Notes under the pieces: generated by a model
The model's database searches: none
The model's input: only the letters and a program-made list of their open reading frames with translations
What the model was told of the DNA's origin: nothing
Made by a program: the position numbers and the translations under genes
Source of the DNA: a virus
IMG/VR virus record: IMGVR_UViG_3300012350_000003
Span: 1-34,128 of that record
Strand: one strand, 5' to 3'
Length of the DNA stretch: 34,128 nucleotides
Part shown: positions 552-26,079 of the stretch, piece after piece
How the letters are laid out: each line of letters opens with the position of its first letter
Numbering within the stretch: position 1 is the first letter of the stretch

Positions 552-582
552 GGGCGCCGGTTCTGGGGAGGCTTCGGCGCCC
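552..582 (+). terminator. Hairpin between first and second genes of the rightward operon
   Basis: GGGCGCCG at 552-559 and CGGCGCCC at 575-582 are perfect inverted repeats with a 15-base loop. It lies in the only sizeable gap of this operon and could be a partial terminator or attenuator. There is no T tract. Confidence 0.45.
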
Positions 583-611
583 ACCCCTGCTGCGCGATGG
601 AGAGTGACGGA

Positions 612-1138: not shown

Positions 1139-1848
1139 GCGGCGTGGACCCGGCGACGTTCCTGCGCGCGTGCGAAGTGTCGGGATGCGAGAAGCCCGCT
1201 AAGGCGCGGCGGATGTGCGGGACGCACTACCGATACTGGCTCGACCAAACCCCGCGAGAGCAGCGCGGACCAGCCCCACGGTTCCTGCGCGAGTTCTGGG
1301 ATCTCGTCGCCAAGCGTCACGCGAACGGTTGCTGGCGATGGACCGGCCCGGTCGATCGCAAGGGGTACGGGCGATGGAGCAAGAAGCTCGCGCACAGGCA
1401 CTCATGGACGTTGGCACACGGTCCGATCCCAGATGATCTCTGGGTGCTCCACCACTGCGATAATCCGCCGTGCGTGAACCCGGCCCACCTGTATCTCGGT
1501 ACCGTCGTCGAAAACGTTCAGGACTCGATGGAGCGCGGCCGACACCACCGGCCGCCCCGAAAGACCCACTGCCCTACTGGGCATGAATACGCCGGAAGCA
1601 ACCTCCGGCTCGTGCAGGCCAAAGGTGGCGAGAAGCGCGTCTGTCGGACCTGCGATAACCGACGGAGCAACGAGCGACAGACGGCCGCTCGGGCAGCGCG
1701 AGGTCTGCTGAAGACGCGGCTCGCGGACCATGAGCGGGCGACGATCAGAGACCTGCGTGAGGCTGGCGCCACCCAGCGAAGCATTGCGGCCGATCTGGGT
1801 CGTGCCCTCGCCACCGTTCAGAAATGCCTCAAGGAGATGGCCGCATGA
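1135..1848 (+). CDS. HNH endonuclease with N-terminal zinc knuckle and C-terminal HTH
   Basis: 237 residues from GTG 1135 (GTG 1144 is an alternative). Residues 13-31 form a Cys-Cys-Cys-His knuckle (C13, C18, C28, H31), common at the start of phage HNH proteins. The HNH core is LHHCDNPPCVNPAHLYLGT at 105-123, with H106/H107, N115 and H118 as the signature. A second cluster follows (CPTGHEYAGSNL, then VCRTC). The last 45 residues look like a resolvase-type helix-turn-helix (TIRDLREAGATQRSIAADLG). This is the build of free-standing homing or nicking endonucleases, with the HTH reading the target. Four-base overlaps on both sides show it is part of the operon and not a recent insertion. The DNA target is unknown. 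Confidence 0.88.
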   Translation: MSGVDPATFLRACEVSGCEKPAKARRMCGTHYRYWLDQTPREQRGPAPRFLREFWDLVAKRHANGCWRWTGPVDRKGYGRWSKKLAHRHSWTLAHGPIPDDLWVLHHCDNPPCVNPAHLYLGTVVENVQDSMERGRHHRPPRKTHCPTGHEYAGSNLRLVQAKGGEKRVCRTCDNRRSNERQTAARAARGLLKTRLADHERATIRDLREAGATQRSIAADLGRALATVQKCLKEMAA

Positions 1849-2288
1849 CGGATCTCGTCGCCTTTATCAGGGCTCGCCTGGACGAGCGGGAAGCGGCGGC
1901 GAAGGCGGCTCGGCGCGGTGATGGCCGGTGGGAGTACCGCGACCGCAGCGACGATCCGGAAACCTTCCCGTGGACGGTGTGGGCGCCCGACGTCCGACTC
2001 TCGGCTGGCACTGGCTTCGCGCCACAGGAGGCGCAGTTCATCGCCCTGAACGACCCGAAGTTCGTGCTCGCCGACGTCGCGGCGAAGCGGCGGATCATGA
2101 GTCGCCACCGGCGTTACGGCGAAGTCGAGCCAAGCTACGCACCCTGGGACGACGCCTGCGACGGTTGCGGGTTCCCGGGCGACCCGGAGTGGCCGGCAAC
2201 CGAACACATCAACGACTGCCCCGAACTGCGCGACCTCGCCGCACCCTTCGACCAGCACCCCGACTATGACCCGGCGTGGGCGTCGTGA
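1845..2288 (+). CDS. DUF6221 family protein
   Basis: 147 residues from ATG 1845 (ATGA overlap with the HNH gene). The start MTDLVAFIRARLDEREAAAK and the end HPDYDPAW match the DUF6221 pattern known in actinobacteria and their phages; the function is not known. Between them, residues 101-130 or so hold C-x2-C followed by H and C (DACDGCGF then HINDC), a plausible zinc site. The helix KFVLADVAAKRRIMSRHRRY is also typical (family proteins carry VLRDVEAKRAII-like text). A second member is encoded at 28412-28801. Confidence 0.8.
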   Translation: MTDLVAFIRARLDEREAAAKAARRGDGRWEYRDRSDDPETFPWTVWAPDVRLSAGTGFAPQEAQFIALNDPKFVLADVAAKRRIMSRHRRYGEVEPSYAPWDDACDGCGFPGDPEWPATEHINDCPELRDLAAPFDQHPDYDPAWAS

Positions 2289-2575
2289 TCGACATCCACC
2301 TACCCGACCACCGGTGGTCGGCGATCACCCGCCACGGTGCCGTTGAGCCGGTCGCCTACGTGTGCCAGGAGTGCGGCGAGCGTCGCCCGCGCGGGACCGC
2401 CATCGTGTTCCCGGGCCGGCTCAGCGAGGAGCGGCGCGTCGAGTTGGAGTGGGCCGGCTTCGATGTCGTGGAGTCGAGTATCGGCCCGACGCCCGATCAG
2501 ATCGTGGTGTGCGACGGCCGGATCTGGCCAAGCGCGGATGACATGACGTTCTGCCCCGGCACCGCGGCGGCCTGA
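2285..2575 (+). CDS. Small protein of unknown function with one CxxC pair
   Basis: 96 residues from GTG 2285, chosen because it overlaps the preceding stop by four bases; GTG 2276 is in frame too. It begins VIDIHLPDHRWSAI and has a single C-x2-C (YVCQECGERRPRG) near residue 28, then a strand-rich region (VFPGRLSEERRVELEWAGFD) and an acidic end. One CxxC pair could bind metal in a dimer. It is the last gene of the rightward operon, ending 16 bases before a terminator hairpin. No family recognised. Confidence 0.65.
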   Translation: MIDIHLPDHRWSAITRHGAVEPVAYVCQECGERRPRGTAIVFPGRLSEERRVELEWAGFDVVESSIGPTPDQIVVCDGRIWPSADDMTFCPGTAAA

Positions 2576-13740: not shown

Positions 13741-14244
13741 TCAGGCGACGACGGCACGCTGGTTCGGGTCGAGATAGACCGTCAGCGGCACCGTGAAGTC
13801 CCACGACGTGTCAGGCGCCGGCTTCGACCCGGTGTACTCGCCGCACTCCACGGGGAACATCCGCAGGGAGCCCGTGGTGCCCCCCGCCCCCTGCCCCGTC
13901 GTCCACGCCGTGGCCGTCAGCACACCCTCCCGGACGGCGAGGAACCCGACCGCTCGGTAGAGGAGCAGGTTCCACGCCGGGTCGGTGGAGCCGGACGTCG
14001 CGTCGTGGTGACACGTCAGCGAGATCGTCGGCACCCGCCGGCCCACCCGGTTCAGGGTGTAGGTGGAGCCCACGTTCCCGACGTCGACCTTGCCGGTGTC
14101 CATCCCGATGTCCAGGCCGTCGGGGTTGATGTAGGTGGTCAGGTCGGTGCCGGCGTTCAGCTCGGCCGTGGTGGGCGCCGCGATGTTCGAGCAGGCCGTC
14201 AGCCAGTACACCCTCACCCGGCCGTCGATGATGACGACGCTCAT
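13741..14244 (-). CDS. Major tail tube protein
   Basis: 167 residues from ATG 14244, with AAGGAG about nine bases upstream and an ATGA overlap with the preceding gene. It starts MSVVIIDGRVRVYWLTACSN and holds TTYINPDGLDIGMDTGKVDV, TISLTCHHDATSGSTD and MFPVECGEYTGSKPAPDTSW, followed by a strand-rich end (FTVPLTVYLDPNQRAVVA). Size, strand-rich composition, and position directly before the tail chaperone and tape measure genes identify it as the tail tube protein; the sequence motif alone would not be enough. It should be among the most abundant late proteins, agreeing with the hairpin after it. Confidence 0.82.
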   Translation of the reverse strand: MSVVIIDGRVRVYWLTACSNIAAPTTAELNAGTDLTTYINPDGLDIGMDTGKVDVGNVGSTYTLNRVGRRVPTISLTCHHDATSGSTDPAWNLLLYRAVGFLAVREGVLTATAWTTGQGAGGTTGSLRMFPVECGEYTGSKPAPDTSWDFTVPLTVYLDPNQRAVVA

Positions 14245-14477
14245 TCGCTGCTCTCCTTGGTCGTCGCGGCCTTCTTGGCGGCCTTCGGTTCGGGTTCGGG
14301 TTCGGCGTCGAGGTCGTCGAACACGTCGGCGAAGTCGGGTAGGTGGAAGTCGGCGGGTTCGTTGCGAAGGTCGGAGATGCGGACCCATCCCCTGGCCCGC
14401 TGGTGTTCGAGGGCGGCGGCGGGAACGATGCCCGGGGTTGCGATGTCCGGATGCCGGACCACGGCGAAGTTGCTCAT
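14241..14477 (-). CDS. Small acidic protein beside the tail tube gene
   Basis: 78 residues from ATG 14477. It begins MSNFAVVRHPDIATPGIVPA and has the region EHQRARGWVRISDLRNEPAD, then a very acidic end with EPEPEPKAAKKAATTKESSE. Proteins with this start and a charged tail are commonly found between capsid and tail genes of actinophages; they may be structural decoration or assembly factors. It overlaps the tail tube gene by four bases. Function is not known. Confidence 0.65.
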   Translation of the reverse strand: MSNFAVVRHPDIATPGIVPAAALEHQRARGWVRISDLRNEPADFHLPDFADVFDDLDAEPEPEPKAAKKAATTKESSE

Positions 14478-14882: not shown

Positions 14883-15329
14883 TCAGGTGGTGGCGAGGGT
14901 GCGGTAGACCACGATCAGTTCCATGACGGGATCGCCGGTCGTGTCGGTGCGGGTCGGTACCCCGGCGCCTTGCTCCTGCCGGATCAGCCCCAGGTTCAGG
15001 CCGGCGACGACGAGACGCTTGTTCAGCAACGCGGTCCGGACCCGCTGCGCGACGGCGCGGGCGGCGACCTCGGCGTCCTCCGGTGTCGCGCCGGACACTC
15101 CGCCGCCAACGCACACAGCGATCCATCTCGCGGTCGGCGAACCGGCCAGGCCGTCGAGGGCGTCGGTGGTACCGGTGGGCCACTCGACCGTGGCGTAGAC
15201 CACGACGTACGGCGGCGCGGCGGCCGGGGTCAGGTTCGGCACGCCACCAGGGAAGACCACCAGCGACGTGTCGGCTCGCAGCAGCGCGATACCGGCGGCG
15301 ACCAAGGATTGATCTAGGCCGTCAGTCAT
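14883..15329 (-). CDS. Tail terminator / tail completion-like protein
   Basis: 148 residues from ATG 15329 with GGAGG four bases upstream. It reads like the compact alpha/beta tail terminators of siphoviruses: an N-terminal helix (MTDGLDQSLVAAGIALLRAD), the strand PPYVVVYATVEWPTGTT, then ARWIAVCVGGG, a long helix (EDAEVAARAVAQRVRTALLN) and the strand DPVMELIVVYRTL. This fold caps the tail tube and joins it to the head. The gene order gp10-like protein then this protein then tail tube supports the call. The sequence match to a named family is not certain. Confidence 0.68.
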   Translation of the reverse strand: MTDGLDQSLVAAGIALLRADTSLVVFPGGVPNLTPAAAPPYVVVYATVEWPTGTTDALDGLAGSPTARWIAVCVGGGVSGATPEDAEVAARAVAQRVRTALLNKRLVVAGLNLGLIRQEQGAGVPTRTDTTGDPVMELIVVYRTLATT

Positions 15330-15376: not shown

Positions 15377-15382
15377 TATGAT
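15377..15382 (+). promoter_or_regulatory. Leaderless promoter of the antisense wHTH gene
   Basis: TATGAT, close to the -10 consensus, is followed by six bases and then ATG 15389. No Shine-Dalgarno sequence precedes the ATG. No clear -35 box is seen. It lies in a 59-base gap between two leftward genes. Confidence 0.65.
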
Positions 15383-15388
15383 GAGGCA

Positions 15389-15658
15389 ATGGAACGCAAC
15401 GAGATCAGCCGGCACGAAGTCCTCGTCTACCGCGTGCTCGCCGAAGGCGGGTGGGTCACCACCCGAGAGATCGCTGAAACGACCGGCGTAGCGCCGAGGA
15501 CAGCCCGCGCGCACGCACTGAAGTTGGTCCGCCTGGGCATCGCCGACCAAGCCGAGGTCTTCCCGGGGCATCGTTACCGAATCAGCGAACACGCGAGCAA
15601 GCGCAACCGCGCCTACCACGACCGCATCCAGCGCGCGGGTGAGGCACTGGGCATCTAG
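15389..15658 (+). CDS. Winged helix-turn-helix regulator, antisense gene within the structural operon
   Basis: 89 residues. It starts MERNEISRHEVLVYRVLAEG, then GWVTTREIAETTGVAPRTAR (helix-turn-helix, about residues 22-41), AHALKLVRLGIADQ and a wing strand (AEVFPGHRYRISEHASK), ending with a charged helix. The fold is like MarR/ArsR or DprA-C-type wHTH domains, which bind DNA as dimers. It is read rightward while its neighbours are leftward, from its own leaderless promoter. Its stop TAG overlaps the TAG stop of the next leftward gene within CTAG. This is the build of a moron or lysogeny-expressed regulator. Its target is unknown. Confidence 0.8.
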   Translation: MERNEISRHEVLVYRVLAEGGWVTTREIAETTGVAPRTARAHALKLVRLGIADQAEVFPGHRYRISEHASKRNRAYHDRIQRAGEALGI

Positions 15659-16083
15659 CCCGGGTCCGTCACCGGGCCACCTTCGGGCGGCTTCTCCCCG
15701 GCGATCAGCGACGCACCCAACTCCGCCACGTAGCGCTCGAAGCGCGGCACCTCGGCGTCCAGCGCCGGGGACAAGTGCGGAATCGGAGCGTTGTTCTGGC
15801 TGCCGTACTCCAGCAGCCGGCCGAGCCCGCCTTGCAGCTTCGCCCGGTCCGGGCCGACCTCACCGACGATGCCACCAGCGCCGGAGCGCACGTCGTAGCT
15901 GATCGACCTCGGGTAGTGCGGCAGGTAGCCACGATGGGACGCCGCGCGGATGATCCGCTGAGCCTGCCTCTTCACATTGAGGCAGCCCTGCCCGACGATC
16001 TTCTTCCCGCGTTCCTCCACCTCATCGGCGGCACGCTGCAAGTCGGCGGCGAGTTCCTTCAGGCCCTCGGACTTGGCGCCCAT
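15655..16083 (-). CDS. HK97 gp10-like neck / head-tail joining protein
   Basis: 142 residues from ATG 16083, which overlaps the previous stop (TGATG). The first half is a long helix with ELAADLQRAADEVEERGKKI and the usual central strand pair (SISYDVRSGAGGIVGEVGPD), then RLLEYGSQNNAPIPHLSPAL, the hallmark of HK97 gp10-type proteins (a helix, then LEFGT..-like turn and P-x-P). It ends EGGPVTDPG. Such proteins sit in the head-tail joint or assist tail completion. Position between connectors and tail terminator agrees. Confidence 0.85.
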   Translation of the reverse strand: MGAKSEGLKELAADLQRAADEVEERGKKIVGQGCLNVKRQAQRIIRAASHRGYLPHYPRSISYDVRSGAGGIVGEVGPDRAKLQGGLGRLLEYGSQNNAPIPHLSPALDAEVPRFERYVAELGASLIAGEKPPEGGPVTDPG

Positions 16084-16574
16084 CAGCCGCTCGTCTCGAC
16101 CATCAGGAAGCGGCGGGCGGTGGCGTACGACTTGTGCGCCGGCCCTCTCAATCTGAACGTCTTCCCGACCAGACTTGCGTCAAGCAAGCAAGACGTGATC
16201 GTCACCAGGTCGTCCGGCGCGACCGCCGCCGTGTCGCCTGTGACCGGCAGGTGCAGCGTCAGCTGGCCGATGAACACGGCGGCCTCGCCGACCTGCGACG
16301 GGTTCGCCGCCGGCGCCGACTGCTGGATTTTGCACGGGCCGCTGTAGACAACCGCGAGGGTCGGCGTGATGACGCCCGTCTCGCTGTCCACCGTCGAACT
16401 GGTGCGGTGCCGCACCGTGCACGCGTCGCCCATCAGCCGCTCAGCCGCGGCCCGGCCCAACAGTGTGACCTGCCGTGCGCCAGACGCCGCCTGGACGTTG
16501 AACCCCGGGAACAGGGTGGCGCCCGGGTAGACACCCGAACCCGGGTACAGGGTCAGGGTCAGGGTCAAGGTCAA
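16083..16574 (-). CDS. DUF6093-like head-tail connector protein, TTG start
   Basis: 163 residues if read from TTG 16574, which overlaps the previous stop as TTGA. The N-terminus is odd: LTLTLTLTLYPGSGVYPG then ATLFPG, written by four hexamers and three YPG/FPG units. The main domain begins at about residue 38 (LLGRAAAERLMGDACTVRHR) and reads like DUF6093: RLMGDACTVRHRTS, DSETGVITPTLAVVYSGPCK, LTLHLPVTGDTAAVAPDDLV and the end VGKTFRLRGPAHKSYATAR. DUF6093 proteins lie in the connector region of actinophages and are thought to be head completion or tail-attachment proteins. The true start could be later, for example a TTG near 16463. Confidence 0.72.
   Translation of the reverse strand: MTLTLTLTLYPGSGVYPGATLFPGFNVQAASGARQVTLLGRAAAERLMGDACTVRHRTSSTVDSETGVITPTLAVVYSGPCKIQQSAPAANPSQVGEAAVFIGQLTLHLPVTGDTAAVAPDDLVTITSCLLDASLVGKTFRLRGPAHKSYATARRFLMVETSG
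16550..16573. repeat. Four tandem hexamers
   Basis: On the plus strand GGGTCA occurs three times in a row and is followed by AGGTCA. On the coding strand they read as Leu-Thr pairs of the DUF6093-like gene. In the frame of the tail fibre-like gene each unit has a TGA, the first of which ends that gene. Change in unit number would leave the DUF6093 frame intact and only alter the length of its N-terminus. Confidence 0.75.
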
Positions 16575-17224
16575 GCCGCCAGCCCCACCCAGAACGGCTG
16601 CGTGTTCGACGTCATCGTCGTGAGGTCGCGGGTCGGCGGCAAGGTGGTGTCCGACGTCAAGCCGATGTCGCCGTTCGGGTACGGGCCCACCGACAGCGCG
16701 CCCGCGGTCAACCCGCCGGTCTGCCCCGACCGGTACAACGCCGGGGATGTCGTACCCCGGAACATGATCCCCACGTAGTAGGTGCCGGCCGCCACGTTGG
16801 TCAGCGGCGCCGCCAACGTCGCGATGATCCGGCCCGTGACGGTGGTGAAGTTGGTTGCCTGGTCCGGCCACTGCGCCAACTGGAGGCCGGTCGCGTCCCG
16901 CAACACGATGAACCCGGCGCTGATCGTCGAACCGGTCGTCGCCGACCCGTACACCACCCTGGACAGCGACGGCACCGCGGCGGGCACCCACACCCGCACG
17001 AAATGCTCAATCCCCTGCGTGAAAGTGACGTTGGAGGTGAACACGCGGGGGTCGCCGGTCCACCCGACCAAGCCGATGTCGGCCGGCTGCATGACCGCGT
17101 CGTCGAGGGACTGCACGAGTGCGTGAGCACCCTGGATGCCCGTCTCCATGTAACCGAGGCGGGCCGCCGATACCGGCGTCGCCCCGGCTGCGCCATCAAC
17201 CCACGTCTGCGGGGTGTACGACAT
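16571..17224 (-). CDS. Fibre-like structural protein within the connector genes
   Basis: 217 residues from ATG 17224. The start MSYTPQTWVDGAAGATPVSA then ARLGYMETGI is the short N-terminal motif seen in many actinophage tail fibres and receptor-binding proteins (a W-x-DG, TP, AARL and ME pattern). The rest is strand-rich (VFTSNVTFTQGIEHFVRVWV, SAGFIVLRDATGLQLAQWPD, AAGTYYVGIMFRGTTSPALY) and probably a jelly roll. It ends FWVGLAA. Normally such genes lie after the tape measure gene; here it is between head-tail connector genes. It may be a head fibre or a decoration protein. Its role cannot be proven from sequence. Confidence 0.65.
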   Translation of the reverse strand: MSYTPQTWVDGAAGATPVSAARLGYMETGIQGAHALVQSLDDAVMQPADIGLVGWTGDPRVFTSNVTFTQGIEHFVRVWVPAAVPSLSRVVYGSATTGSTISAGFIVLRDATGLQLAQWPDQATNFTTVTGRIIATLAAPLTNVAAGTYYVGIMFRGTTSPALYRSGQTGGLTAGALSVGPYPNGDIGLTSDTTLPPTRDLTTMTSNTQPFWVGLAA

Positions 17225-17235
17225 CGCGGGCGTCC

Positions 17236-17607
17236 TTAAGCGGTCGGCACGGTCGGCACGACGGTCCAGTGCCAGTCAGGATCGGGGAATGCGTACTGCG
17301 GCTGCCCGGCGCTGGAATAGGCGATACGGGCGGCGTTGAGGATGTCCCGACGACGGGCCCGGTCCCACGTCACCTGGTAGTCGTCGACACCCTCGGACGC
17401 GGTTGAGGTTGGATTGCGGTAGGCGATTGCGGTGAGTTCCAGGCCCCACGAATACAGGTTGTCCGCGACCGGGCTGGGCCAGTCGGCCAGCCCGGTCGCG
17501 TCCTTCAGCCAGCCGTATGCGGTCCGCCGCACCACCGCGATCGTGGCGGGGTCGATCGTCTCCTTCACGTACAGCTGAAGCTCAGTGTCCGTGAAGAGAT
17601 CCGCCAT
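17236..17607 (-). CDS. Head-tail connector protein
   Basis: 123 residues from ATG 17607. The all-helical pattern TELQLYVKETIDPATIAVVR, RTAYGWLKDATGLADW, LYSWGLELTAIAYRNPTSTA and the polar motif ARRRDILNAARIAYS match adaptor proteins of the HK97 gp6 / SPP1 gp15 kind that sit beneath the portal ring, and which often carry the helix AIAYRNP. The C-terminus has GQPQYAFPDPDWHW. Position right after decoration-type genes supports the call. No strong ribosome site; the preceding stop is seven bases upstream. Confidence 0.75.
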   Translation of the reverse strand: MADLFTDTELQLYVKETIDPATIAVVRRTAYGWLKDATGLADWPSPVADNLYSWGLELTAIAYRNPTSTASEGVDDYQVTWDRARRRDILNAARIAYSSAGQPQYAFPDPDWHWTVVPTVPTA

Positions 17608-17614
17608 GACCTAC

Positions 17615-17986
17615 TCAGCCCCCGTACTCGGCGACGAGGTCTTCCTTCGTCATCTGCTCGGCGACCGCGCGGGCGTCGTCCTCGGACACACCCTCATCCC
17701 GCCGCGCGACCGCGTACTCCACCCACGCGGCCTTACCCGCGTTGCCGTGCGGACGCCTGGGCGGCTCCCCAGACTCGGCAACCGGCTCCTCCGGCTGGAC
17801 GACCGGCTCGTCGTCGACCCACTCGGCGTACTCCCTGCGCACCAGGTTGGCCACGTTGTCCGGGTCAGCCGAGTCGGGGAGAATGGCGCCCTGGTAGAAA
17901 CCAAGGACGGTCCACTTTCCGCTGATCGGATCGAGAACCTTCACGGTCGCATACGCCACAGTCACTCTTGCTCGACGCGTGTTCAC
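17615..17986 (-). CDS. Small protein with a C-terminal helical motif
   Basis: 123 residues from GTG 17986 (GTGA overlap). The first 65 residues form strands (VTVAYATVKVLDPISGKWTV, LGFYQGAILPDSADPDNV) and then an acidic linker (WVDDEPVVQPEEPVAESGEP). The end HGNAGKAAWVEYAVARRDEG then VSEDDARAVAEQMTKEDLVA looks like the short helix-extension-helix module found in several actinophage connector-region proteins, which has been seen near DNA-binding SAP/HeH-like folds. Could bind DNA or the capsid interior. The call rests on pattern only. Confidence 0.55.
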   Translation of the reverse strand: MNTRRARVTVAYATVKVLDPISGKWTVLGFYQGAILPDSADPDNVANLVRREYAEWVDDEPVVQPEEPVAESGEPPRRPHGNAGKAAWVEYAVARRDEGVSEDDARAVAEQMTKEDLVAEYGG

Positions 17987-18381
17987 GTGTGCATCACCAT
18001 CCGTACCGGGTTACCGGTTGTCGCGGTGTCCAGCGCCGTCCCGATGATCTTCTCGAAGGTCTGGGCAACAAACGGTCCGACCTGACCCGCCGCAGCGGCA
18101 AAAAGTTTCTGGCCTGCCGTCACCCCACCGCTGTTGATGACGGTGATGACCGGTCCGAACATGAGTGCCTTGACCGGTGCTGTCGAAGCGGCGCCGGCGA
18201 GAGCGATACCGACGACCGAGGCCGAGTTGGCACCGGCTGGACCGAGCGTGCCCGACCCGGAAACCTCGAGCAGTTGGTCGGCGGTGATGGTGGCCGATGC
18301 AGTGCAACCGGCGAAGATGTGCTCGAACCCCTCGTGCAGATGGTTGGCGTTGCGCAGGATCGCGCTGGAGATGACGGGCAT
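17983..18381 (-). CDS. DUF2190-like capsid decoration protein
   Basis: 132 residues from ATG 18381, overlapping the previous stop (TAATG). It is Ala/Gly/Thr-rich and strand-rich: TASATITADQLLEVSGSGTL, SASVVGIALAGAASTAPVKA, GGVTAGQKLFAAAAGQVGPF, ending KIIGTALDTATTGNPVRMVM. The order of a short hairpin, V-G-I-A, GDKLF-like and GTAL..A sequences is that of DUF2190, proteins thought to stabilise capsids. A second protein with the same order of motifs is at 19883-20272, on the other side of the major capsid gene. Confidence 0.6.
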   Translation of the reverse strand: MPVISSAILRNANHLHEGFEHIFAGCTASATITADQLLEVSGSGTLGPAGANSASVVGIALAGAASTAPVKALMFGPVITVINSGGVTAGQKLFAAAAGQVGPFVAQTFEKIIGTALDTATTGNPVRMVMHT

Positions 18382-18695
18382 TAGTCCCCCCTCACGCCAA
18401 CGGAGGCGATAGTTGCCGTTACGGTGGGCGAACTGCCACCAGTCAGGGTCTTGAGGTTCGCCCGGACGTACCGAATCAGATGGGCGTTGACGGACACAGC
18501 GCCCTGGCTGAGGGCGGCACCGGCGAGAACGACCCAGTTGGTCCCGTCGTGCGACCCTTCCAGGTCAATGTTGACGGTGGACGGGCTTCCGGTTGCCGAC
18601 ATGGCCATGGTGACGTACCGATACAGACCCTCCATGTCCCGAGACGTGCCTGCCCCAGTAGTGGTGGCTGCGTTGAGTGAGACGAATGGCAGCAT
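18381..18695 (-). CDS. Small beta-rich structural protein
   Basis: 104 residues from ATG 18695, overlapping the stop of the major capsid gene (TGATG). It reads MLPFVSLNAATTTGAGTSRD, VTMAMSATGSPSTVNIDLEG, SHDGTNWVVLAGAALSQGAV and AHLIRYVRANLKTLTGGSSP, then strands to the end. The pattern of VNIDLEGSHDGTNW and YVRANL is that of discoidin-like head or tail decoration proteins in actinophages (measurement-like repeat of deltas with noise being a common misannotation). It is likely on the capsid surface. Function otherwise unknown. Confidence 0.6.
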   Translation of the reverse strand: MLPFVSLNAATTTGAGTSRDMEGLYRYVTMAMSATGSPSTVNIDLEGSHDGTNWVVLAGAALSQGAVSVNAHLIRYVRANLKTLTGGSSPTVTATIASVGVRGD

Positions 18696-19633
18696 CACAG
18701 CACCACACCGGTGATCTCGTATCCGGCGCCCGGCTCCTGTACGAACGGAACCGTCAGGCGGCGTGCCTGCAAGTCCCACGCGTCCTGGCCTTCCTTGCGG
18801 ATCGACTTGACCTCAACGCCCGCCAGACCGCCGAACTGGGCATAGCCGGGCGCGGCCGTCGCCTCGTCGGCCATACCGCCAAGTTGGGTGGAGTCCAGCA
18901 CCCACGCCCTGGTGACGACCGGCAGGTTTGGGGTCTTGATGACGGTCAGGTTCGCCACCGTCTCGATCATGCCGGTGTAGACGGGGTTGTCGGACGTCTC
19001 CCGCTTGCGCAGCTGCGCGATCGCGTCGTTGAGCATCAGGTACGTGTACGCCTTCGGCGACACCACCAGGGTATCGGCGTGGTAGCCCAGGTTGAGATCC
19101 TCGATCGCCTGGATGGCGAGGAGGATGTCGTCCAGCGGCTTGCGGTTCGCCGGAATGTCGTCCCAGCGGCCAGCGGTGCCGACCTCGGCGGTGATCGCGG
19201 TGCCGATGGCGGCCATGGAGACCGTATCCACCTGCTTGATGACGGTAGTGACGACCTTCGTCAGCGCCCGGTCCACGGCCGACATCGGCCACGACTTGCG
19301 GGTGATCTCCTCGTCGGTCAGCAGCGCCTTCTGGCCCCACTTGGAGATCGCGGCGAGGCCGGCGGTACCGGTGCCCAGGTTGGCATACGGGTACTCCGAC
19401 CCAGCCGACACAGCCTCGACCGGACGGTCGGAGATGAACGGCTCGGTCATGTCGTAAAGAGCCGCACCGCCACTGGCCCGCTGGCGGTCCTTGAGCAACT
19501 GGTCCGACACGAAACGCAGGTCGGTAGCGTCGCGCAGGCGACGCTGGATCCGGACCGGGTCCGAAAGGAACCGGCTGATGGTGAGCAGGTCGCCCGAAAG
19601 GGTGGGCGCCGCCGCCGGGTATGCGTAAGGCAT
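18695..19633 (-). CDS. Major capsid protein, HK97 fold
   Basis: 312 residues from ATG 19633, with GAGGAG seven bases upstream. It begins MPYAYPAAAPTLSGDLLTIS and has RRLRDATDLRFVSDQLLKDR, PFISDRPVEAVSAGSEYPYA, KWGQKALLTDEEITRKSWPM (the E-loop/spine helix region), VDRALTKVVTTVIKQVDTVS, and the P-domain style ANRKPLDDILLAIQAIEDLN, YHADTLVVSPKAYTYLMLND. The A-domain end is LQARRLTVPFVQEPGAGYEI. These are the recurring parts of actinophage HK97-type capsids. There is no delta-domain before it, which agrees with a separate scaffold nested in the protease gene. Confidence 0.9.
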   Translation of the reverse strand: MPYAYPAAAPTLSGDLLTISRFLSDPVRIQRRLRDATDLRFVSDQLLKDRQRASGGAALYDMTEPFISDRPVEAVSAGSEYPYANLGTGTAGLAAISKWGQKALLTDEEITRKSWPMSAVDRALTKVVTTVIKQVDTVSMAAIGTAITAEVGTAGRWDDIPANRKPLDDILLAIQAIEDLNLGYHADTLVVSPKAYTYLMLNDAIAQLRKRETSDNPVYTGMIETVANLTVIKTPNLPVVTRAWVLDSTQLGGMADEATAAPGYAQFGGLAGVEVKSIRKEGQDAWDLQARRLTVPFVQEPGAGYEITGVVL

Positions 19634-19655
19634 GGCCTATCTCCTCTCGGGAGAG

Positions 19656-19883
19656 TTAGAGCGGATAACCGCTGTTGGCGCCGGCCTGGTCGGCGGTCGC
19701 AGCGGCATTGAGAGCGTCGATCGCGTCCTGCAACTTCTCGGTGAGCGTGGCGAAGTTCGTCGGTTCGTACGACGATTCGTGGCTCTCCACGCCGGCCTGA
19801 AGCACCGTGACCCGCCGGATGATGTGGCCCCACTCGGGGCCCGTGTTGTAACTGCGCCAGGTACCACCAACAGGACTGGCCAT
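19656..19883 (-). CDS. Small protein of unknown function before the major capsid gene
   Basis: 75 residues from ATG 19883 (TGATG overlap). It starts MASPVGGTWRSYNTGPEWGH, then IIRRVTVLQAGVESHESSYE, and ends in a helix (FATLTEKLQDAIDALNAAAT) and ADQAGANSGYPL. The amphipathic helix could form a coiled coil. It lies between a decoration protein gene and the major capsid gene, a place where small capsid-associated proteins occur. No family recognised. Confidence 0.65.
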   Translation of the reverse strand: MASPVGGTWRSYNTGPEWGHIIRRVTVLQAGVESHESSYEPTNFATLTEKLQDAIDALNAAATADQAGANSGYPL

Positions 19884-20272
19884 CAGGTGCGTCCGATGAA
19901 GCGGACCTTGTTGGTCGACGTCGCCGTGGTCGTGGCGATGCCGATGAGCGTGCCGAGTGCGGCTGCCGCGGCGATGCTCGACGTGGCCGGGTCGACCTGA
20001 CCCGTCGCCGCGGCCTGCACGCCGCCGGCGGCGGTGATGCCGTTCGCGCACACGATCTCGTGTTCCACATTGGCCAGCGGCCAGATTGAGACCTTCGCGC
20101 CGGACGCCGCGTCATGCGCGAACACGCCGATCACCGTTGCCGCCGCTGCCGTGCCGACGCCGGCGGTACCGACCCCGGAGGCGATGGCGATCGTGCCGCC
20201 GGTGACGGCCGCAGACGTCGTCTTCGTGAACGGAACAGCTCCGCCGGTGTAGACGGGGGTGTAGTCGGCCAT
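19883..20272 (-). CDS. DUF2190-like capsid decoration protein
   Basis: 129 residues from ATG 20272. It reads MADYTPVYTGGAVPFTKTTS, then VTGGTIAIASGVGTAGVGTA, AATVIGVFAHDAASGAKVSI, CANGITAAGGVQAAATGQVD and LGTLIGIATTTATSTNKVRF. The order VTGG...ASG, VIGVFAHDAA-G-V-I, I..G and LIG is that of small beta proteins next to the major capsid gene (head decoration, DUF2190 or gpD-like). Such trimers or pentamers strengthen the shell. Ala/Thr/Gly-rich low complexity makes exact family assignment uncertain. Confidence 0.7.
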   Translation of the reverse strand: MADYTPVYTGGAVPFTKTTSAAVTGGTIAIASGVGTAGVGTAAAATVIGVFAHDAASGAKVSIWPLANVEHEIVCANGITAAGGVQAAATGQVDPATSSIAAAAALGTLIGIATTTATSTNKVRFIGRT

Positions 20273-20275
20273 GGC

Positions 20276-20830
20276 TCAGACCCCCTTGCGCACGGCGGTG
20301 GGCGGGGACAGTCGGGCGATCTCGCGGTCGAGCTCGTCGTCGACCTCTTCGCCGTCGCCGACGTAGCCCGACGCCATCACCGCAAGCGCCGAGTTCTTCG
20401 TCAGGTTGTCAATCAGCGAGCGGGTACCGTTCGGGTCCGCGTCCCACAGCCGCGCGAAATGCTGCCGCTGCGCCGGGGTGAACTTCCCGTCGCTGACGGC
20501 CTTCGCGATGACCTGGTCCCGCTCGTCGCGCTGCGACTTGTCGACGAAGGCGGTCAGGCGCTTGATGGTGTCCTGCGTCGCCTCCCACACCGACGACGCC
20601 AGCACGACCGTGCCTGGCGCGCCGGACGCGCGCACCAGCTCCTTGTTCGGCGCCACCGCGGGCTTCGCGGTGGCGGTGTCATCGAACAGTGCCGGCTGCG
20701 CGGGCTCGGGCTCGGGCGGAGACGTCTCATCCGGGGTGGCGCCGGCCGCTGTGAGCATGGCCGCCTTCACCTCGTCGTCGGAGGCGTCGGCCGACAGACC
20801 CAGCGCCTCTCGGATCTTTACCGGATCCAT
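20276..20830 (-). CDS. Scaffold protein from an internal start
   Basis: 184 residues in the same frame as the protease, starting at ATG 20830 (MDPVKIREALGLSADASDDE). GAAGGGA lies five bases before this ATG, a better ribosome site than that of the long form. The product is acidic and helical (DDEVKAAMLTAAGATPDETS, SVWEATQDTIKRLTAFVDKS, RDERDQVIAKAVSDGKFTPA) as scaffold proteins are. This copies the lambda C/Nu3 layout. Proof would need protein data. Confidence 0.65.
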   Translation of the reverse strand: MDPVKIREALGLSADASDDEVKAAMLTAAGATPDETSPPEPEPAQPALFDDTATAKPAVAPNKELVRASGAPGTVVLASSVWEATQDTIKRLTAFVDKSQRDERDQVIAKAVSDGKFTPAQRQHFARLWDADPNGTRSLIDNLTKNSALAVMASGYVGDGEEVDDELDREIARLSPPTAVRKGV

Positions 20831-21640
20831 GCCGGTCCCTTCTCTCGGTTCCTCCGCCTCCGGGGCGGGAGCATGTGGTGGGGTTGCCGGGTCATCCGGC
20901 GGGGCCGACGCGAACACCCGCTGCGCCGACGACGCGGCCAACGCGGTCTGAAGGTCGGCGAGGGACTTGATGTCGCGGACAGCCGGCGGGGTGGCACCAA
21001 GGAACACCAACCCGGACAGGACGAGGGAGTACTCGCGGCCCTGGTACTCGAAGTCCTGCCAACCCTCAATCGACCGGTTCGGCCACCGGGTAGGCGCCGA
21101 CGCGGCCAGCCAGTCGGGCATCCCGGTGATGTCGCCGAGCAGCACCGGGCCCCGATGGTCCTGGTGGTAGCGGATGTTCGTGACCGCCCCGAACGACGGC
21201 TCCCCGTCGAACCGGTCGTCGACGTGGCCCAGCTTCACCGGCACGGCCTGCCCACCGGACGCGGCGAAGAAGTCCGCGGCGTCACGCAGCATCTCGTCGG
21301 TGAAGTCGCCATTGCCCGATGCGACTTTCCAAGAACCAGGGCGAGCGAGCTCAACACCGAGTAGATCCGACCCGGCGGCGGCCTTCACCTCGTCGGCGAA
21401 GGTGATGCCGTACCGCTTGCCGGCCGACTTGATCCGCGCCTTGATCTTCGCGAGCTGGTCGGCGGTGTACTTGGCCGCGTTCTTCGGCATCGATATGTAT
21501 GACCAGGCGGCGCGGCAGTGCTCCTCGGAGTCCAACGGGTACCGCTTCTTGCCATCCGGCTGATGTCCGGGATCGGCGTAGGTCACGTCGCCGTAAGGCT
21601 TCTTCGGGTCGCCAGCGGCAGCGGTCACGGCGTGCGTCAT
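20276..21640 (-). CDS. Prohead protease with C-terminal scaffold region
   Basis: 454 residues from ATG 21640; GTG 21655 and 21652 are in frame, but AGGTGG is better spaced for 21640. Residues about 10-75 look like DUF6582 (GKKRYPLDSEEHCRAAWSYI, ADQLAKIKARIKSAGKRYGI), often fused to phage proteases. About 85-230 resembles the Mu gpI-type phage protease (DEMLRDAADFFAASGGQAVP, VKLGHVDDRF with H as a likely catalytic residue, GDITGMPDWLAA, WPNRSIEGWQDFEYQGREY with S as the likely nucleophile, and the strand SLVLSGLVFLGATPPAV). The last 180 residues are the scaffold. It would process the prohead and itself. Confidence 0.8.
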   Translation of the reverse strand: MTHAVTAAAGDPKKPYGDVTYADPGHQPDGKKRYPLDSEEHCRAAWSYISMPKNAAKYTADQLAKIKARIKSAGKRYGITFADEVKAAAGSDLLGVELARPGSWKVASGNGDFTDEMLRDAADFFAASGGQAVPVKLGHVDDRFDGEPSFGAVTNIRYHQDHRGPVLLGDITGMPDWLAASAPTRWPNRSIEGWQDFEYQGREYSLVLSGLVFLGATPPAVRDIKSLADLQTALAASSAQRVFASAPPDDPATPPHAPAPEAEEPREGTGMDPVKIREALGLSADASDDEVKAAMLTAAGATPDETSPPEPEPAQPALFDDTATAKPAVAPNKELVRASGAPGTVVLASSVWEATQDTIKRLTAFVDKSQRDERDQVIAKAVSDGKFTPAQRQHFARLWDADPNGTRSLIDNLTKNSALAVMASGYVGDGEEVDDELDREIARLSPPTAVRKGV

Positions 21641-21669
21641 CGGCCCACGCACCACCTTTCGGGGGGAGG

Positions 21670-21675
21670 CATACT
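21670..21675 (+). promoter_or_regulatory. Possible leaderless promoter of the second antisense gene
   Basis: CATACT, one base off TATACT, is followed by seven bases and GTG 21683. GGGGGGAGG (21661-21669) also precedes the start, but 13 bases away is too far for a good ribosome site. Either a leaderless or a weakly led start is possible. Confidence 0.4.
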
Positions 21676-21682
21676 GGGATGC

Positions 21683-21886
21683 GTGGACGAGTACGAAGAC
21701 CTACGCCGCCAGATGCCGGATCTACCGCCGCCGGCCGAAGAGAATCAGGCGCGCCGAATCGGCCGCATCGCGCGGGACATTCAGCGGCAGGTCAACGGGA
21801 GCGGGCCGGTGATCGGCCACGCCATCGAGCACTCCATCGAGGACCCGTTGACCGGGGAAATCACCGTACGGTTCGTGGCCACCTAA
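21683..21886 (+). CDS. Small antisense gene of unknown function
   Basis: 67 residues from GTG 21683, VDEYEDLRRQMPDLPPPAEE, then NQARRIGRIARDIQRQVNGS, GPVIGHAIEHSIEDPLTGEI and TVRFVAT. It is charged, with a basic helix followed by a small strand pair. It is read rightward in the gap between the leftward portal and protease genes and ends six bases before the portal gene's stop. Together with the genes at 15389 and 23882 it forms a set of lone rightward genes. No family recognised. Confidence 0.65.
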   Translation: MDEYEDLRRQMPDLPPPAEENQARRIGRIARDIQRQVNGSGPVIGHAIEHSIEDPLTGEITVRFVAT

Positions 21887-21892
21887 ATCAGG

Positions 21893-23860
21893 TCAGCCGG
21901 GGCCTACACGGTGGCCGCGCGGCGGTTTGCCGTGCTTGACCCTGTTCAGATCTGATCCGGGCCAGAAATGGTACCTTTCGTGGAACCACTCGGCCGCCGT
22001 GCGCTTGGCCATCTCCGGGTTCAGGTACTTCACCAGGTGGTGGTACAGCTCAGTCCAGGTCGACCACTTCGCCGCACCCTCGCCGTACACCCAGTAGTGC
22101 TTGAGCTGTTCGCCGCCCGGGTGGGTATCGACACCAGCGGCGGCCTGAACCTCGTCGGGCGCGGCATTAGCAATGTGCTCGGCCAGGTCGCTGGCCAGGT
22201 CACCCTTGAAGTCAACGTGGCTACCGCCGTGCTCGACCCGGACCGTGTCGGTTCCGTCCTCGTACGAGCCCCACCCGGTCACCGTCATCGGGCCGTCGGT
22301 CAGCTTGAAGGTGTGACGCTCCACCGGGTGCTCATAGCTGGAGGTCGGGTCGCCAGGGTCAAGGTCCATGCTGTTGAGCGCGTCGTACAGCCGGGTCGTC
22401 TGCTTGCCGGACAACGTGAACGACGGGCCGCCCGGGAACTCAAGCTTCGTGTTGCCCTTGCCCTCGTCGCGCACCGCGACGTCCTCCACCCGCTTCAGGA
22501 GACGCGCCGCCCCGCCAGTGCCGATCCACTCCCCGGAGTGTGGGTTACGCGGCTCGGCCGGGTTGAACTTCGCCGCCACCGACTGCGCCCCGGTCGGGGT
22601 GGGCGGCTCCGGGGTGGGGGCTGGCGCGGCCGGCGGTGCGGTAGCCGTGGCCGGATCCGCCGGCGGCAACCCGTACTGCTGCCGCGACGACTCCTCCAAC
22701 ACCTCGTCAGGGTGGATGACCCCGGCGTCGACGAGCGTCTTCAACGCTTGCGCCGTAGCGGCCTGGCGGGAACCGATCTCGTCGAACACCAGCCGCGGCG
22801 CCGGCTCATCCTCGCCGAAGTTGACGTCGACGAGGTCCTCGACGATGTGCTGGGTGGCGGTGTCGCGGATCTGCTCGGCGAGAGTCTGTAGCGACATGGT
22901 GAAGAAGTCCGCGAACGTCGTGCCGAGCGCCCAGCTGCCGGTCTGCTGGCCGAGGTTCAGGAAGTGCGCGAGCACGGCCCTGGCTATTTGCGAATCGTGA
23001 TACTCGATGACCGGCATGGCGTCCGGCAGGGTGCCCTCGACGCCGCGTAGCAGCAGGTCCGCATCGTGTGACACCGCCGCCCCGGCGGCCTCACCCGCGC
23101 GCCACGCCTTCGCCATCGCCAAACCAGCCGACATGGTCGCCGGCGTGCCGTCCGGTGCGTCCTTGTACAGCGGCACGCCAAGCCCGTTCCGCTCGATCGT
23201 CTGCGCCTGGACCCGCAGCAAGCGGTCCTTCAGTAGCCAGTTCTTGTAACAATTCCGAAGAATTGACGTGCCCAGCCAGTTGCCGCCCTCCCGGGCGTGG
23301 ATGTACGCGACGAGGTGATTCACCGGAATGGGCTGCGGCTCCCGGTCGACCGCTGTCCAGTACTGCTTGATCGCGACGAGTCCGCCGTCGGGCGCCACGT
23401 CGATGCGCTCGATGGTCTTCGCTGGCCGGTACGAGAGCTTGCGCAGATGCGCCGCCGACCCGTCGGGCGTGACCCGGTAAACCTGCTCGAAGTAGGCGTG
23501 CCCCATGGGGAGCATCAGCAGCGCCTCGCGCAAGTGCGACGACCACGAGAACCGGTCCTTCGTCCGCGGCGGCGCGGAGGGCTTCTTCCCGACAACCGGC
23601 AGGCCGAGGTCGTCGGCGACGAACTTCACCACCCGGGCGCGGGCGCCGGCCGGGTCGATGCGCCACGGGGTGCGCAGCAGCGTCTCGGTGACCGCGCGCA
23701 GCACCGACCCGACCTGGGCGTCTTGTCGGCGCATCTGGTCGTAGACGTAGACCGACTGCGGCCACACCAGTTCCGGGGTGGTTTCGTTGTCGTACAGCCA
23801 CCAGTTGTAGTTGGGTGCCTGGACGTAGCCGATCTCCGTCGTCGGGGCGGTAGCGGGCAT
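21893..23860 (-). CDS. Portal protein (DUF935-like) with C-terminal extension
   Basis: 655 residues from ATG 23860 with GGAGGG nine bases upstream. Residues 1-420 read as a portal of the Mu gp29/DUF935 group: VYVYDQMRRQDAQVGSVLRA, FSWSSHLREALLMLPMGHAY, IPVNHLVAYIHAREGGNWLG, SILRNCYKNWLLKDRLLRVQ and FADFFTMSLQTLAEQIRDTA. Twelve copies form the DNA gate of the head. A Pro/Ala linker (about 420-450) leads to an extension with FNPAEPRNPHSGEWIGTGGA, a strand-rich region, and an aromatic end (HYWVYGEGAAKW, WTELYHHLVKYLNPEMAKRT, EWFHERYHFWPGSDLNRVKH). A domain like the last part is one I recall in other actinophage head proteins; its role is unknown. It is about 230 residues longer than a plain portal. 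Confidence 0.82.
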   Translation of the reverse strand: MPATAPTTEIGYVQAPNYNWWLYDNETTPELVWPQSVYVYDQMRRQDAQVGSVLRAVTETLLRTPWRIDPAGARARVVKFVADDLGLPVVGKKPSAPPRTKDRFSWSSHLREALLMLPMGHAYFEQVYRVTPDGSAAHLRKLSYRPAKTIERIDVAPDGGLVAIKQYWTAVDREPQPIPVNHLVAYIHAREGGNWLGTSILRNCYKNWLLKDRLLRVQAQTIERNGLGVPLYKDAPDGTPATMSAGLAMAKAWRAGEAAGAAVSHDADLLLRGVEGTLPDAMPVIEYHDSQIARAVLAHFLNLGQQTGSWALGTTFADFFTMSLQTLAEQIRDTATQHIVEDLVDVNFGEDEPAPRLVFDEIGSRQAATAQALKTLVDAGVIHPDEVLEESSRQQYGLPPADPATATAPPAAPAPTPEPPTPTGAQSVAAKFNPAEPRNPHSGEWIGTGGAARLLKRVEDVAVRDEGKGNTKLEFPGGPSFTLSGKQTTRLYDALNSMDLDPGDPTSSYEHPVERHTFKLTDGPMTVTGWGSYEDGTDTVRVEHGGSHVDFKGDLASDLAEHIANAAPDEVQAAAGVDTHPGGEQLKHYWVYGEGAAKWSTWTELYHHLVKYLNPEMAKRTAAEWFHERYHFWPGSDLNRVKHGKPPRGHRVGPG

Positions 23861-23867
23861 GGCGGCG

Positions 23868-23873
23868 TACCCT
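23868..23873 (+). promoter_or_regulatory. Leaderless promoter of the third antisense gene
   Basis: TACCCT is followed by eight bases and ATG 23882, fitting TANNNT-N8-ATG. On the other strand the same bases overlap the GGAGGG ribosome site of the portal gene. There is no Shine-Dalgarno sequence for the rightward gene. Confidence 0.5.
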
Positions 23874-23881
23874 CCCCAGAC

Positions 23882-24196
23882 ATGAGCGGTGGAAGCTACA
23901 ACTACCTGGGCTCGATCTGCTACGACGACCTCGGCGAACTACTCACCAAGGAGTCGGACCTTCGGGACATGGCCGATCGGCTGGCCGGCCTCGGCTACGC
24001 CGAAGACGCCGCTCGCGAGACGGAAGAGTTGCTGACCATGCTTCGTCAGTGGAAGACCCGCGCCGAGGTGCGAGTCCGCCGACTCAGCGACATTTGGCAC
24101 GCCGTCGAGTGGTGGGACTCAGCCGACTGGAGCGAGGACCGCGTCCGCGAAGCACTCACCAAGTACCGCGACGAGGGAGTCAGAAACCGGCCGTAG
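23882..24196 (+). CDS. Conserved small actinobacterial protein, antisense in the structural operon
   Basis: 104 residues from ATG 23882. It starts MSGGSYNYLGSICYDDLGEL and goes on LLTKESDLRDMADRLAGLGY, AEDAARETEELLTMLRQWKT, RAEVRVRRLSDIWHAVEWWD and SADWSEDRVREALTKYRDEG. I recall this start and the WHAVEWWDSxDWSEDxVxEAL end as common in actinobacterial genomes and their prophages; the function is not known. It is helical and may form a coiled coil. It is read rightward from its own leaderless start and overlaps the end of the terminase gene by 17 bases. Confidence 0.8.
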   Translation: MSGGSYNYLGSICYDDLGELLTKESDLRDMADRLAGLGYAEDAARETEELLTMLRQWKTRAEVRVRRLSDIWHAVEWWDSADWSEDRVREALTKYRDEGVRNRP

Positions 24197-25700
24197 CCAG
24201 GTCGCCTGTCTCTGACCGTGCCGACGAGGCGACCAGATCCACCATCGGCGGCGGGGCGGGCGGAGGTGGCGGCGGCACCATCGATAGCCCCCACAGCGCG
24301 ATGGCGGCGGCCACGAGCGGCGAGATGTCAGCCTGCGACTTGCGTCGCGAGAACGCCCACAGCCCATCTCCGATGTCCCGCCGGCTGGCGCCGGCCACCG
24401 CGCGAGCCAGCAGCGGATCCGCGAGATGCCTGACGTTGCGGTCCACGACAGCCGACGAGAACGCCTCGCACGCCTGACCGAGGTCCCGTGTGGTCGTCTG
24501 TCGAGGCTCGATCCCCGCACCCAGCAGGTCCGGCAGCAGGGCTCCGGCCGGGCCGCCCGGGTCGAGCACCCAGTCCAAGGGCCGGTGGACGCGCAGTTCG
24601 ACACACCGCGCCGGCACCCAGCCGATACCCGGGCCGTGGGCAACGACCTCAACGTGCGCCAAGCCATCCGGCCGCCACATCGCCGCCACGATCGCCGCCG
24701 AGCGAGAACCAGGCGAAACGTCGATGGCGAACACGGGCCGCCCGGGCGGGGCAGACTCCCGGTCGCCGCACTCGGCCCACGCCTCAAGCGGGAAGGCGCC
24801 CGTGCCGACCGGCTCGTCGTACCAACCCAGCCGCTCACGCCCGAACTCATCCGGCGGCAGCGCCCGCCGCTCGTTGCGGATATACGCGTACGTGATCCGG
24901 CGACCGAGCGCAGGATTCGCCAGCGGCCACAACGTCTCGTCGTCGAGCGCACAGCCATCAATGCCGACCGAGTGCAGGCACTCCGGACCCAGCCGGCACG
25001 GCGGGGCATCCCAGCTACCGGGCGCGCAGAACTCGATCCACACCAGCGACGGATCGCCACCGGCACGACCGCGGTCCCGCAGTGCCCGCAGGTGGTCAGA
25101 CGAGAGGACGCCCGCGCTCGACCCATAGTTGATCTGCGGATCCCCGGTCATCGAGCGGGCCGCCAGCGTCGGAATCAGCGCGCCCATCGACTCCGCCGGC
25201 AGGTACAGCGCCTCATCCATCACCAGACGCTTGCCACCCAAGCCCCGGCCGCCGCCTTTTGAGCGGGCCAGGAACTCCAACTTCGCGCCGGAGTGCAGCT
25301 CGATCGCCTCTTCGCCGTTGGCGTAGGAGATCTTCTTGACCCGCCGCGACAGGTCCGGCGTGGAGGCGATGATGCCATCGAAGTCGTTGAACGCGTCCCT
25401 GGCGGTGCGGAACAGGTGCGCTGTCCAAACAATCCGGTCCGGAGGCAATAAAAACAGATCAAACAGCACTGCCGGCAGCAATACGCCGCCCGTTTTCCCG
25501 TTCTGCCGGGCCTCGATGATGGCCGACTCGAAGGCTGCCCACCGACCGCCGGGGCCATAGGACAGCATCGCGTCCACGGCAACCTCTTGCTCGGCGTCCA
25601 ACTCCCGGCCGGCTAGGCGCGCGAGGTCGACCGCCTCGTCGCCGTACGAGCCGAGTCGCGGCGGTATCCACAGGTGCGCCGGCTGCACTGAATCAGGCAC
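24180..25700 (-). CDS. Terminase large subunit
   Basis: 506 residues from GTG 25700; AAGG lies seven bases upstream and the gene overlaps the previous one by eight bases. It packages DNA into proheads with an ATPase and cuts it with a nuclease. Walker A-like ARQNGKT is at 64-70, Walker B LVMDE at 159-163 and the coupling motif YGSSAG at about 192-197. The nuclease domain begins FAIDVSPGSRSAAI near 324 (D327 as first metal ligand) and continues DWVLDPGGPAGALLPDL. A proline run (PPPPPPAPPP) lies near the C-terminus. The family is the actinophage terminase group with RQNGK in the P-loop. Confidence 0.92.
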   Translation of the reverse strand: MPDSVQPAHLWIPPRLGSYGDEAVDLARLAGRELDAEQEVAVDAMLSYGPGGRWAAFESAIIEARQNGKTGGVLLPAVLFDLFLLPPDRIVWTAHLFRTARDAFNDFDGIIASTPDLSRRVKKISYANGEEAIELHSGAKLEFLARSKGGGRGLGGKRLVMDEALYLPAESMGALIPTLAARSMTGDPQINYGSSAGVLSSDHLRALRDRGRAGGDPSLVWIEFCAPGSWDAPPCRLGPECLHSVGIDGCALDDETLWPLANPALGRRITYAYIRNERRALPPDEFGRERLGWYDEPVGTGAFPLEAWAECGDRESAPPGRPVFAIDVSPGSRSAAIVAAMWRPDGLAHVEVVAHGPGIGWVPARCVELRVHRPLDWVLDPGGPAGALLPDLLGAGIEPRQTTTRDLGQACEAFSSAVVDRNVRHLADPLLARAVAGASRRDIGDGLWAFSRRKSQADISPLVAAAIALWGLSMVPPPPPPAPPPMVDLVASSARSETGDLATAGF

Positions 25701-26079
25701 CGGCGGCCTTCTGTAGGCGTCGCTGGGCGAGCTCGTCGAGCGGATCGACCGCCCTTGACGCATCCTGGAGTGCCTCGGTCATCACCGCGCGCAGCTCCCG
25801 GCTCAGCGCCGCAATCGCCGAACCTGTGTCGAACGGCGATTCCATCCGCTCTGCCAGCCGTACGGCCTGAGCGCCGAGCGCCGAGTTCAGCTGGCCAGCC
25901 GACCTGAGCTCGTCCCGAACCGTGTCCGCCAACGAACCGGATGGCACCTCGACCGGGGACGGGAGCGCTTCGACCGCGCCACGGCGCTGCTTACGCTTCC
26001 GGCAGGCCGGGCCGCAATATGTGGCCGTCTTCCGCTGAGCATCGAACGGTTTGCCGCACGCCGCGCATGAGACCCTCAT
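25693..26079 (-). CDS. Terminase small subunit-like protein with zinc finger
   Basis: 128 residues from ATG 26079 with GAGGGGG upstream. Residues 5-26 make a treble-clef-like zinc finger (CAACGKPFDAQRKTATYC then GPACRKRKQRR), then a linker and a long helix (DTVRDELRSAGQLNSALGAQ, LAERMESPFDTGSAIAALSR, VMTEALQDASRAVDPLDELA). Its place directly before terL fits a small subunit that recognises the packaging site. The zinc finger plus helix design is found in several actinophage genes in this position. The role is inferred from position. Confidence 0.68.
   Translation of the reverse strand: MRVSCAACGKPFDAQRKTATYCGPACRKRKQRRGAVEALPSPVEVPSGSLADTVRDELRSAGQLNSALGAQAVRLAERMESPFDTGSAIAALSRELRAVMTEALQDASRAVDPLDELAQRRLQKAAGA

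Follow-up and report, generated by a model that had tools for sequence, protein, structure and literature searches.

We consider it probable that two small genes, here termed A and C, and possibly a third, B, are promoter-bearing passenger genes placed head-to-head with the late genes of a temperate actinobacterial siphovirus. The window, that is the whole stretch of DNA analysed, comprises 34,128 bp with 68% G+C and represents an incomplete IMG/VR virus record. A gene caller based on codon usage, trained on long ORFs and blind to promoters, called 47 leftward genes in it; these constitute a siphovirus late operon whose terminase large subunit (TerL) is less than 60% identical to actinophage terminases. 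The same caller picked all three reversed ORFs. An initial annotation of this DNA had described three lone rightward genes among about 40 leftward neighbours. All three ORFs are present on the plus strand (A, 15389-15658; B, 21683-21886; C, 23882-24196) and the leftward majority is borne out, but they are not the only rightward genes, as a separate block of six occupies the left end of the window (381-2575). A, B and C are thus the sole reversed genes of the late operon, but not of the window as a whole. The features concerned are as follows.

13741-14388, leftward: major tail protein, after which come tail and endolysin genes.
14883-15329, minus strand: late gene downstream of gap A, with support from synteny.
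15377-15382, plus strand: -10-like box of gene A, TATGAT, with an N6 spacer to ATG.
15389-15658, plus strand: gene A, predicted winged-helix protein of 89 aa, reversed in the gap between neck1 and the late gene that follows it.
15655-16083, minus strand: neck1/tail completion protein (phrog_5), upstream of gap A.
18695-19633, leftward: major head protein.
20276-21655, minus strand: head maturation protease (phrog_3894), downstream of gap B.
21670-21675, plus strand: candidate -10 box CATACT of gene B, N7 before GTG; weak, being CANNNT not TANNNT.
21683-21886, plus strand: gene B, 67-aa ORF with a GTG start, filling the protease-portal gap.
21893-23860, minus strand: portal protein (phrog_113), between gaps B and C.
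23868-23873, plus strand: -10-like box of gene C, TACCCT, with an N8 spacer to ATG; it shares bases with the portal ribosome site.
23870-23877, minus strand: portal ribosome-binding site GGGGAGGG (leftward reading), read from the sequence, overlapping the C promoter box.
23882-24196, plus strand: gene C, helical protein of 104 aa (phrog_6724, the MSGGSYNYL family), reversed in the TerL-portal gap.
24180-25763, minus strand: TerL (phrog_9), upstream of gap C.

Among the products of the rightward block at 381-2575 are a DUF6221 protein and an HNH endonuclease. The start codons of two divergent ORFs are separated by 22 bp at 364-387, and both have a TANNNT-N6 box of their own (TAGCAT before a leftward 65-aa ORF at 167-364, TACCAT before the rightward ORF from 387); this looks like a divergent leaderless regulatory region. 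By eye, the leftward 65-aa protein looks like a ribbon-helix-helix regulator.

The bases themselves confirm the three annotated arrangements, TATGAT-N6-ATG, CATACT-N7-GTG and TACCCT-N8-ATG, and the close fit of the genes in their gaps: A shares 4 nt with neck1 and C 17 nt with TerL, and B ends 6 nt before the portal stop. In comparisons of A and C with their nearest homologues, 49, 40 and 43 differences fall at third codon positions as against 9-18 at first or second positions; by this substitution pattern, A and C are real protein-coding genes under purifying selection.

Stop codons just upstream in its homologues place the start of A at 15389. The caller's own choice, an ATG 21 nt upstream at 15368, was rejected, three homologues having a stop at most seven codons upstream and no other start. 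The first T of the A box is at -12 from the start codon. The assignment of A as a winged-helix protein, made initially from the letters, is upheld by an AlphaFold model (mean pLDDT 89) that retrieves MarR/ArsR-type structures in fold searches, with a Foldseek probability of 1.00 and E 2.5e-4 to MarR-type ZitR, and VIA-align Z 9.7 and rmsd 3.0 with 83 aligned to MarR-type 3e6m; Pfam HTH models gave matches below cut-off only. On the strength of the model, A is a winged-helix protein, and it probably acts as a small DNA-binding regulator.

The relatives of A recur on the reversed strand in differing neighbourhoods. The closest (L054, 82%) is directly downstream of TerL, and those of L172 (62%) and L173 (59%) are reversed at other places, the L172 copy adjoining a glycosyltransferase gene downstream of the head genes. 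These three and A itself are strand-isolated; the L055 relative stands beside another rightward gene. All five family members have a TANNNT at most 18 nt from the ATG, and in four the spacing is N5-7 (TATGAT-N5 in L054, TATAGT-N5 in L055 and TAAGCT-N7 in L172, besides A). The L173 homologue has TATAAT-N18 with AGGAGG and can be leadered; the leaderless start is thus the rule and not obligatory. Judging from these upstream regions, a promoter of their own seems obligatory for the relatives of A. An empty site is provided by L063, in which neck1 and the next gene (89% and 79% identical, respectively, to those of the window) overlap by 1 bp and leave no space for A. A genome scan returned one short match to A in a Gemmatimonadetes MAG, which was judged spurious.

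Gene C matches the phrog_6724 profile over residues 1-98 of 104, nearly its full length (E 8.7e-27), and carries the invariant start of that family, MSGG.Y.Y; the first T of its box is at -14 from the start codon. The initial annotation had taken C for a conserved protein of unknown role, and it does indeed belong to a widespread phage family whose role is unknown. Its structure model is helical (pLDDT 91) with no convincing fold match in the PDB, one match in BFVD to an uncharacterised viral protein and a Pfam hint of VMAP-M8 (E 0.007, below cut-off). The likeliest guess is that C is a prophage accessory protein tuning or shielding the host. In the closest relative (L002, 82%), the reversed gene occupies not the TerL-portal gap but one flanked by p16083-like and neck1-like genes. 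We had first supposed that C would invariably be an isolated reversed gene, but this was dropped: nearly all of its approximately 50 viral relatives, among them Streptomyces phage Kromp gp93 and Mycobacterium prophage prophiGD43A-5 gp32, reside in co-directional operons and frequently show ATGA-type coupling; a reversed copy in a late operon is seen in the window and L002 only. No further members of the family were found in 31 related records. Recurrence as isolated antisense genes, which had been put forward as a check, is seen, but the relatives occupy other gaps, and other proteins occur behind the same promoter; C is not typically an isolated antisense gene.

In high-G+C bacteria, leaderless genes are recognisable by a TANNNT box some 12 bp ahead of the start codon (PMC3160421), and of the M. 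tuberculosis genes that have a primary start site, roughly a quarter lack a leader (PMC3898074). A and C have such a box at this distance, as is standard for leaderless genes of Actinobacteria; B, with CATACT, does not. The earlier proposal of morons sharing one promoter design thus holds for A and C with their leaderless -10, but not for B, and what is common is the design, the promoter sequences of A, B and C being different. Likewise, the reported lack of a good ribosome site applies to A and C, neither of which is preceded by a Shine-Dalgarno sequence, but not to B, which has GGAGG 13 nt before its start.

It could be argued that the boxes are chance occurrences, or merely ribosome sites of late genes seen on the other strand. 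We regard this as very improbable overall and unlikely for A and C; for B alone, chance is a serious possibility. TANNNT-N5-8 precedes 8 of 1047 ATG/GTG codons on the plus strand of the window (0.8%), a background at which two boxes among three would arise by chance with a probability of about 2e-4. Among the 47 leftward gene starts it is present at one, and an SD-like 4-mer is present at 31. Furthermore, the A box is outside any ribosome site and is conserved in homologues. Against the same plus-strand background, CANNNT or TANNNT precedes 4.9% of ATG/GTG codons, so the B box alone means little. B, rightly singled out as the weakest of the three cases, has no significant relatives in viral contigs, the one sub-threshold stretch being interrupted by a stop codon; as a passenger gene it possibly fits, but poorly.

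An alternative frame for B at 21679 was set aside, the codon-usage caller preferring the GTG frame. Compared with the TerL frame of Gordonia phage Yvonnetastic, B shows GNGPIIGEPVKH against GSGPVIGHAIEH, a match that is not significant (E 0.4). Upstream of TerL in L064 (7433-7564), L065 (6949-7092) and L068 (2659-2829) there is a conserved small reversed gene (MPGKSVKNWK or similar) with CANNNT-N6-ATG, read by eye, which is of the B-like box type.

The association of leaderless boxes with reversed genes extends beyond the window. We surveyed 111 sense-sense gaps of at least 140 bp in 88 portal-selected contigs, the window included, for reversed ORFs of at least 40 aa behind a leaderless box, with 200 shuffles as control. 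Such ORFs occurred in 13 of the 111 gaps (the window's own two included), compared with 3 for ORFs in sense orientation and 4.6 +/- 2.0 after shuffling (maximum 12); when a positive coding score was required, 10 reversed ORFs stood against 1 sense ORF. Among called genes, the box precedes 5 of 18 antisense genes and 3 of 743 sense genes (Fisher p 2e-7). The remaining 13 of the 18 reversed called genes lack it, which counts against the leaderless-passenger reading.

The junction between TerL and portal revealed a constant box with changing cargo. In the majority of the 84 contigs surveyed, this gap is some tens of bp long. In four of them (the window, L056, L057 and L120), TACCCTCCC lies 5' of portal, and each of these has a reversed ORF of 75-104 aa that starts 3-4 nt past CGTACCCTCCCC; the other 80 have other sequences at that site, without the CGTACCCTCCCC box. 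Scanning 2.9 million viral contigs for the pattern yielded 48 matches, which besides the known contigs included one more before a portal gene, in L212, heading a fifth reversed ORF. All five share an identical CGTACCCTCCCC box overlapping the portal ribosome site, and their cargos (104, 87, 75, 92 and 69 aa) are unrelated, although two share a short marginal match; directly past the identical box, the cargo DNA is 27-38% identical, i.e. unrelated. The TerL-portal gaps of L058 and L118 hold reversed endonuclease-like genes behind other boxes. At a second junction (p16083-neck1), CACCTCCCGGCGTACSGTGTKGGGC-ATG (CTCCCGGCGTACSGTGTKGGGC-ATG) is common to L002 and L117; the cargo of L002 is C and that of L117 an unrelated protein of 61 aa.

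Since the portal ribosome site is complementary to the TerL-portal box, a single element may be in use on both strands. By the same token, the overlap gives some ground to the view that the C box is a ribosome site and nothing else, and part of the conservation of the box may serve portal. Yet 80 of 84 contigs do without this sequence, and wherever the box is found 5' of portal it is accompanied by a reversed ORF starting 3-4 nt on. Position suggests a dual-purpose 12-nt element, acting as portal ribosome site on one strand and as leaderless -10 on the other. It is tempting, if decidedly tentative, to regard the junction in these temperate siphoviruses as a cassette slot in which this element stays constant and single reversed cargo genes are exchanged; any ORF with its start codon 3-4 nt past the element might then be expressed at once in the prophage, with no need of a promoter or ribosome site of its own.

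A mosaic breakpoint is apparent at the same junction (23861-24196), the portal of the window being 92% identical to that of L057 and TerL only 32%; the window TerL is 57% identical to that of L061. The portal ORFs of L058 (2937-7607) and L101 (2300-5974) are unusual in encoding 1,556 and 1,224 aa, respectively; in L058, approximately 690 residues separate the two portions that align with the 655-aa portal of the window.

Several attributes of morons are displayed by these genes. They are absent at the same junction in kin (gap A in L063, the TerL-portal gap in most of the 84 contigs), and at the sequence level A and C have a promoter of their own, a TANNNT at near-fixed distance that is conserved or reused. 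Comparison of the contigs shows A and C to be mobile among related viruses. An own terminator is part of the definition of lambdoid morons; here, a T-run scan, which misses T-poor actinobacterial terminators, found no intrinsic terminator. A simple scan found no -35 match or sigma-70 -35/-10 pairs, an Rfam search gave nothing useful, and PADLOC models had no match for B, C and seven cargos; the matches of A were confined to generic HTH parts of CARF/WYL-type regulators (E 3e-4 or worse). Roles in defence, superinfection exclusion or antisense control of the late operon, as first suggested, are hypothetical.

We propose that transcription of A and C would start on the start codon, yielding leaderless mRNAs. 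Since no 5' leader is then needed, such a gene could fit between two late genes, its -10 falling within or close to the region that holds the ribosome site of the following late gene. In the prophage, with the late operon silent, host RNA polymerase carrying the housekeeping sigma factor would read the passenger genes, and in lytic growth strong convergent late transcription would override them. Cargo exchange would proceed via ordinary mosaic recombination at gene boundaries. On this reading, A and C are probably expressed in the prophage. The 34-kb window of this incomplete record contains no integrase, which counts against the passenger-gene reading. Tyrosine integrases are, nevertheless, present in the contigs of L054, L058, L120 and L212, all of which carry reversed genes of this kind, and we infer lysogeny of the window virus from these relatives.

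The same leaderless promoters might instead provide independent expression in lytic infection, with the reversed genes being early, or selfish in the manner of homing endonucleases. The reversed genes of relatives include HNH endonucleases, those of L101, L118 and L121 (Pfam HNH_3) being putatively leaderless, and the coupled starts of most C relatives in co-directional phage operons, like the missing integrase, point the same way. However, A, C and most of the small cargos are not endonucleases, relatives with such genes have integrases, and genes opposing lytic genes are typical of prophage accessory loci (PMC7067206). We therefore rate lytic expression as unlikely.

Still less probable, in our estimation, is that the main product is an antisense RNA damping the late operon, with the ORFs secondary. 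The position opposite late genes would suit this role, transcripts for which no terminator was found may run into TerL, neck1 or portal, and the antisense RNA STnc6030 of prophage BTP1 excludes superinfection (PMC7067206). Conversely, the ORFs are under purifying selection, C is mostly found in sense operons, the overlap with late genes is just 4-17 nt, and the cargo is swapped where the junction is kept. Antisense effects of the passenger genes, which end inside or just short of the converging gene, are possible and need not be their function.

If the passenger-gene reading is true, leaderless expression explains how prophage-expressed genes can be added by temperate actinophages in a few hundred bases between packed late genes. 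It also supplies a search rule (TANNNT, 5 to 8 nt, a start codon, opposite late genes) for accessory genes that annotators often miss. A junction with constant promoter and variable cargo would be a natural collection of small prophage genes that could be screened for defence and host effects.

Parallels exist among known systems. Lambdoid and P22-like morons, such as the ant moron before the tailspike gene, are likewise independently expressed inserts in late operons, with different sets at one position in related phages as here; they differ in having larger gene sets and known repressors, and the available text describes neither a constant promoter with single-gene cargo nor a leaderless start (PMC2629481). 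STMMW_20121 of Salmonella ST64B also has its own promoter and opposes lytic genes, but its host is Gram-negative and its expression in the lysogen was demonstrated, whereas that of the window genes is predicted (PMC7067206). Within phrog_6724, to which C is a nearly full-length match, the other members are co-directional, and reversal within a late operon is confined to those of the window and L002. The closest precedent is Corndog gene 53, from the cluster O mycobacteriophages, a reversed putative DNA-binding gene that lies within the structural operon behind PL2, a predicted promoter with its +1 on the start codon (PMC4351075). Firecracker gp51, YungJamal gp54 and Catdawg gp51 share the Corndog layout. 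Gene 53 differs in heading a reversed block of four genes that separates the major tail gene from the tail chaperone genes, and its 151-aa product has no detectable similarity to A; cargo exchange is not reported in the accessible part of that account (PMC4351075). A tblastn search with A gave no match in a phage collection that included Firecracker and other Corndog cluster mates, Corndog itself being absent. The moron concept and one leaderless example, Corndog gene 53, are already published. A fixed leaderless promoter with exchanged cargo was not described in the literature searched, which was short on subscription papers. The combination of a constant promoter with exchangeable cargo is thus a new variation on published morons.
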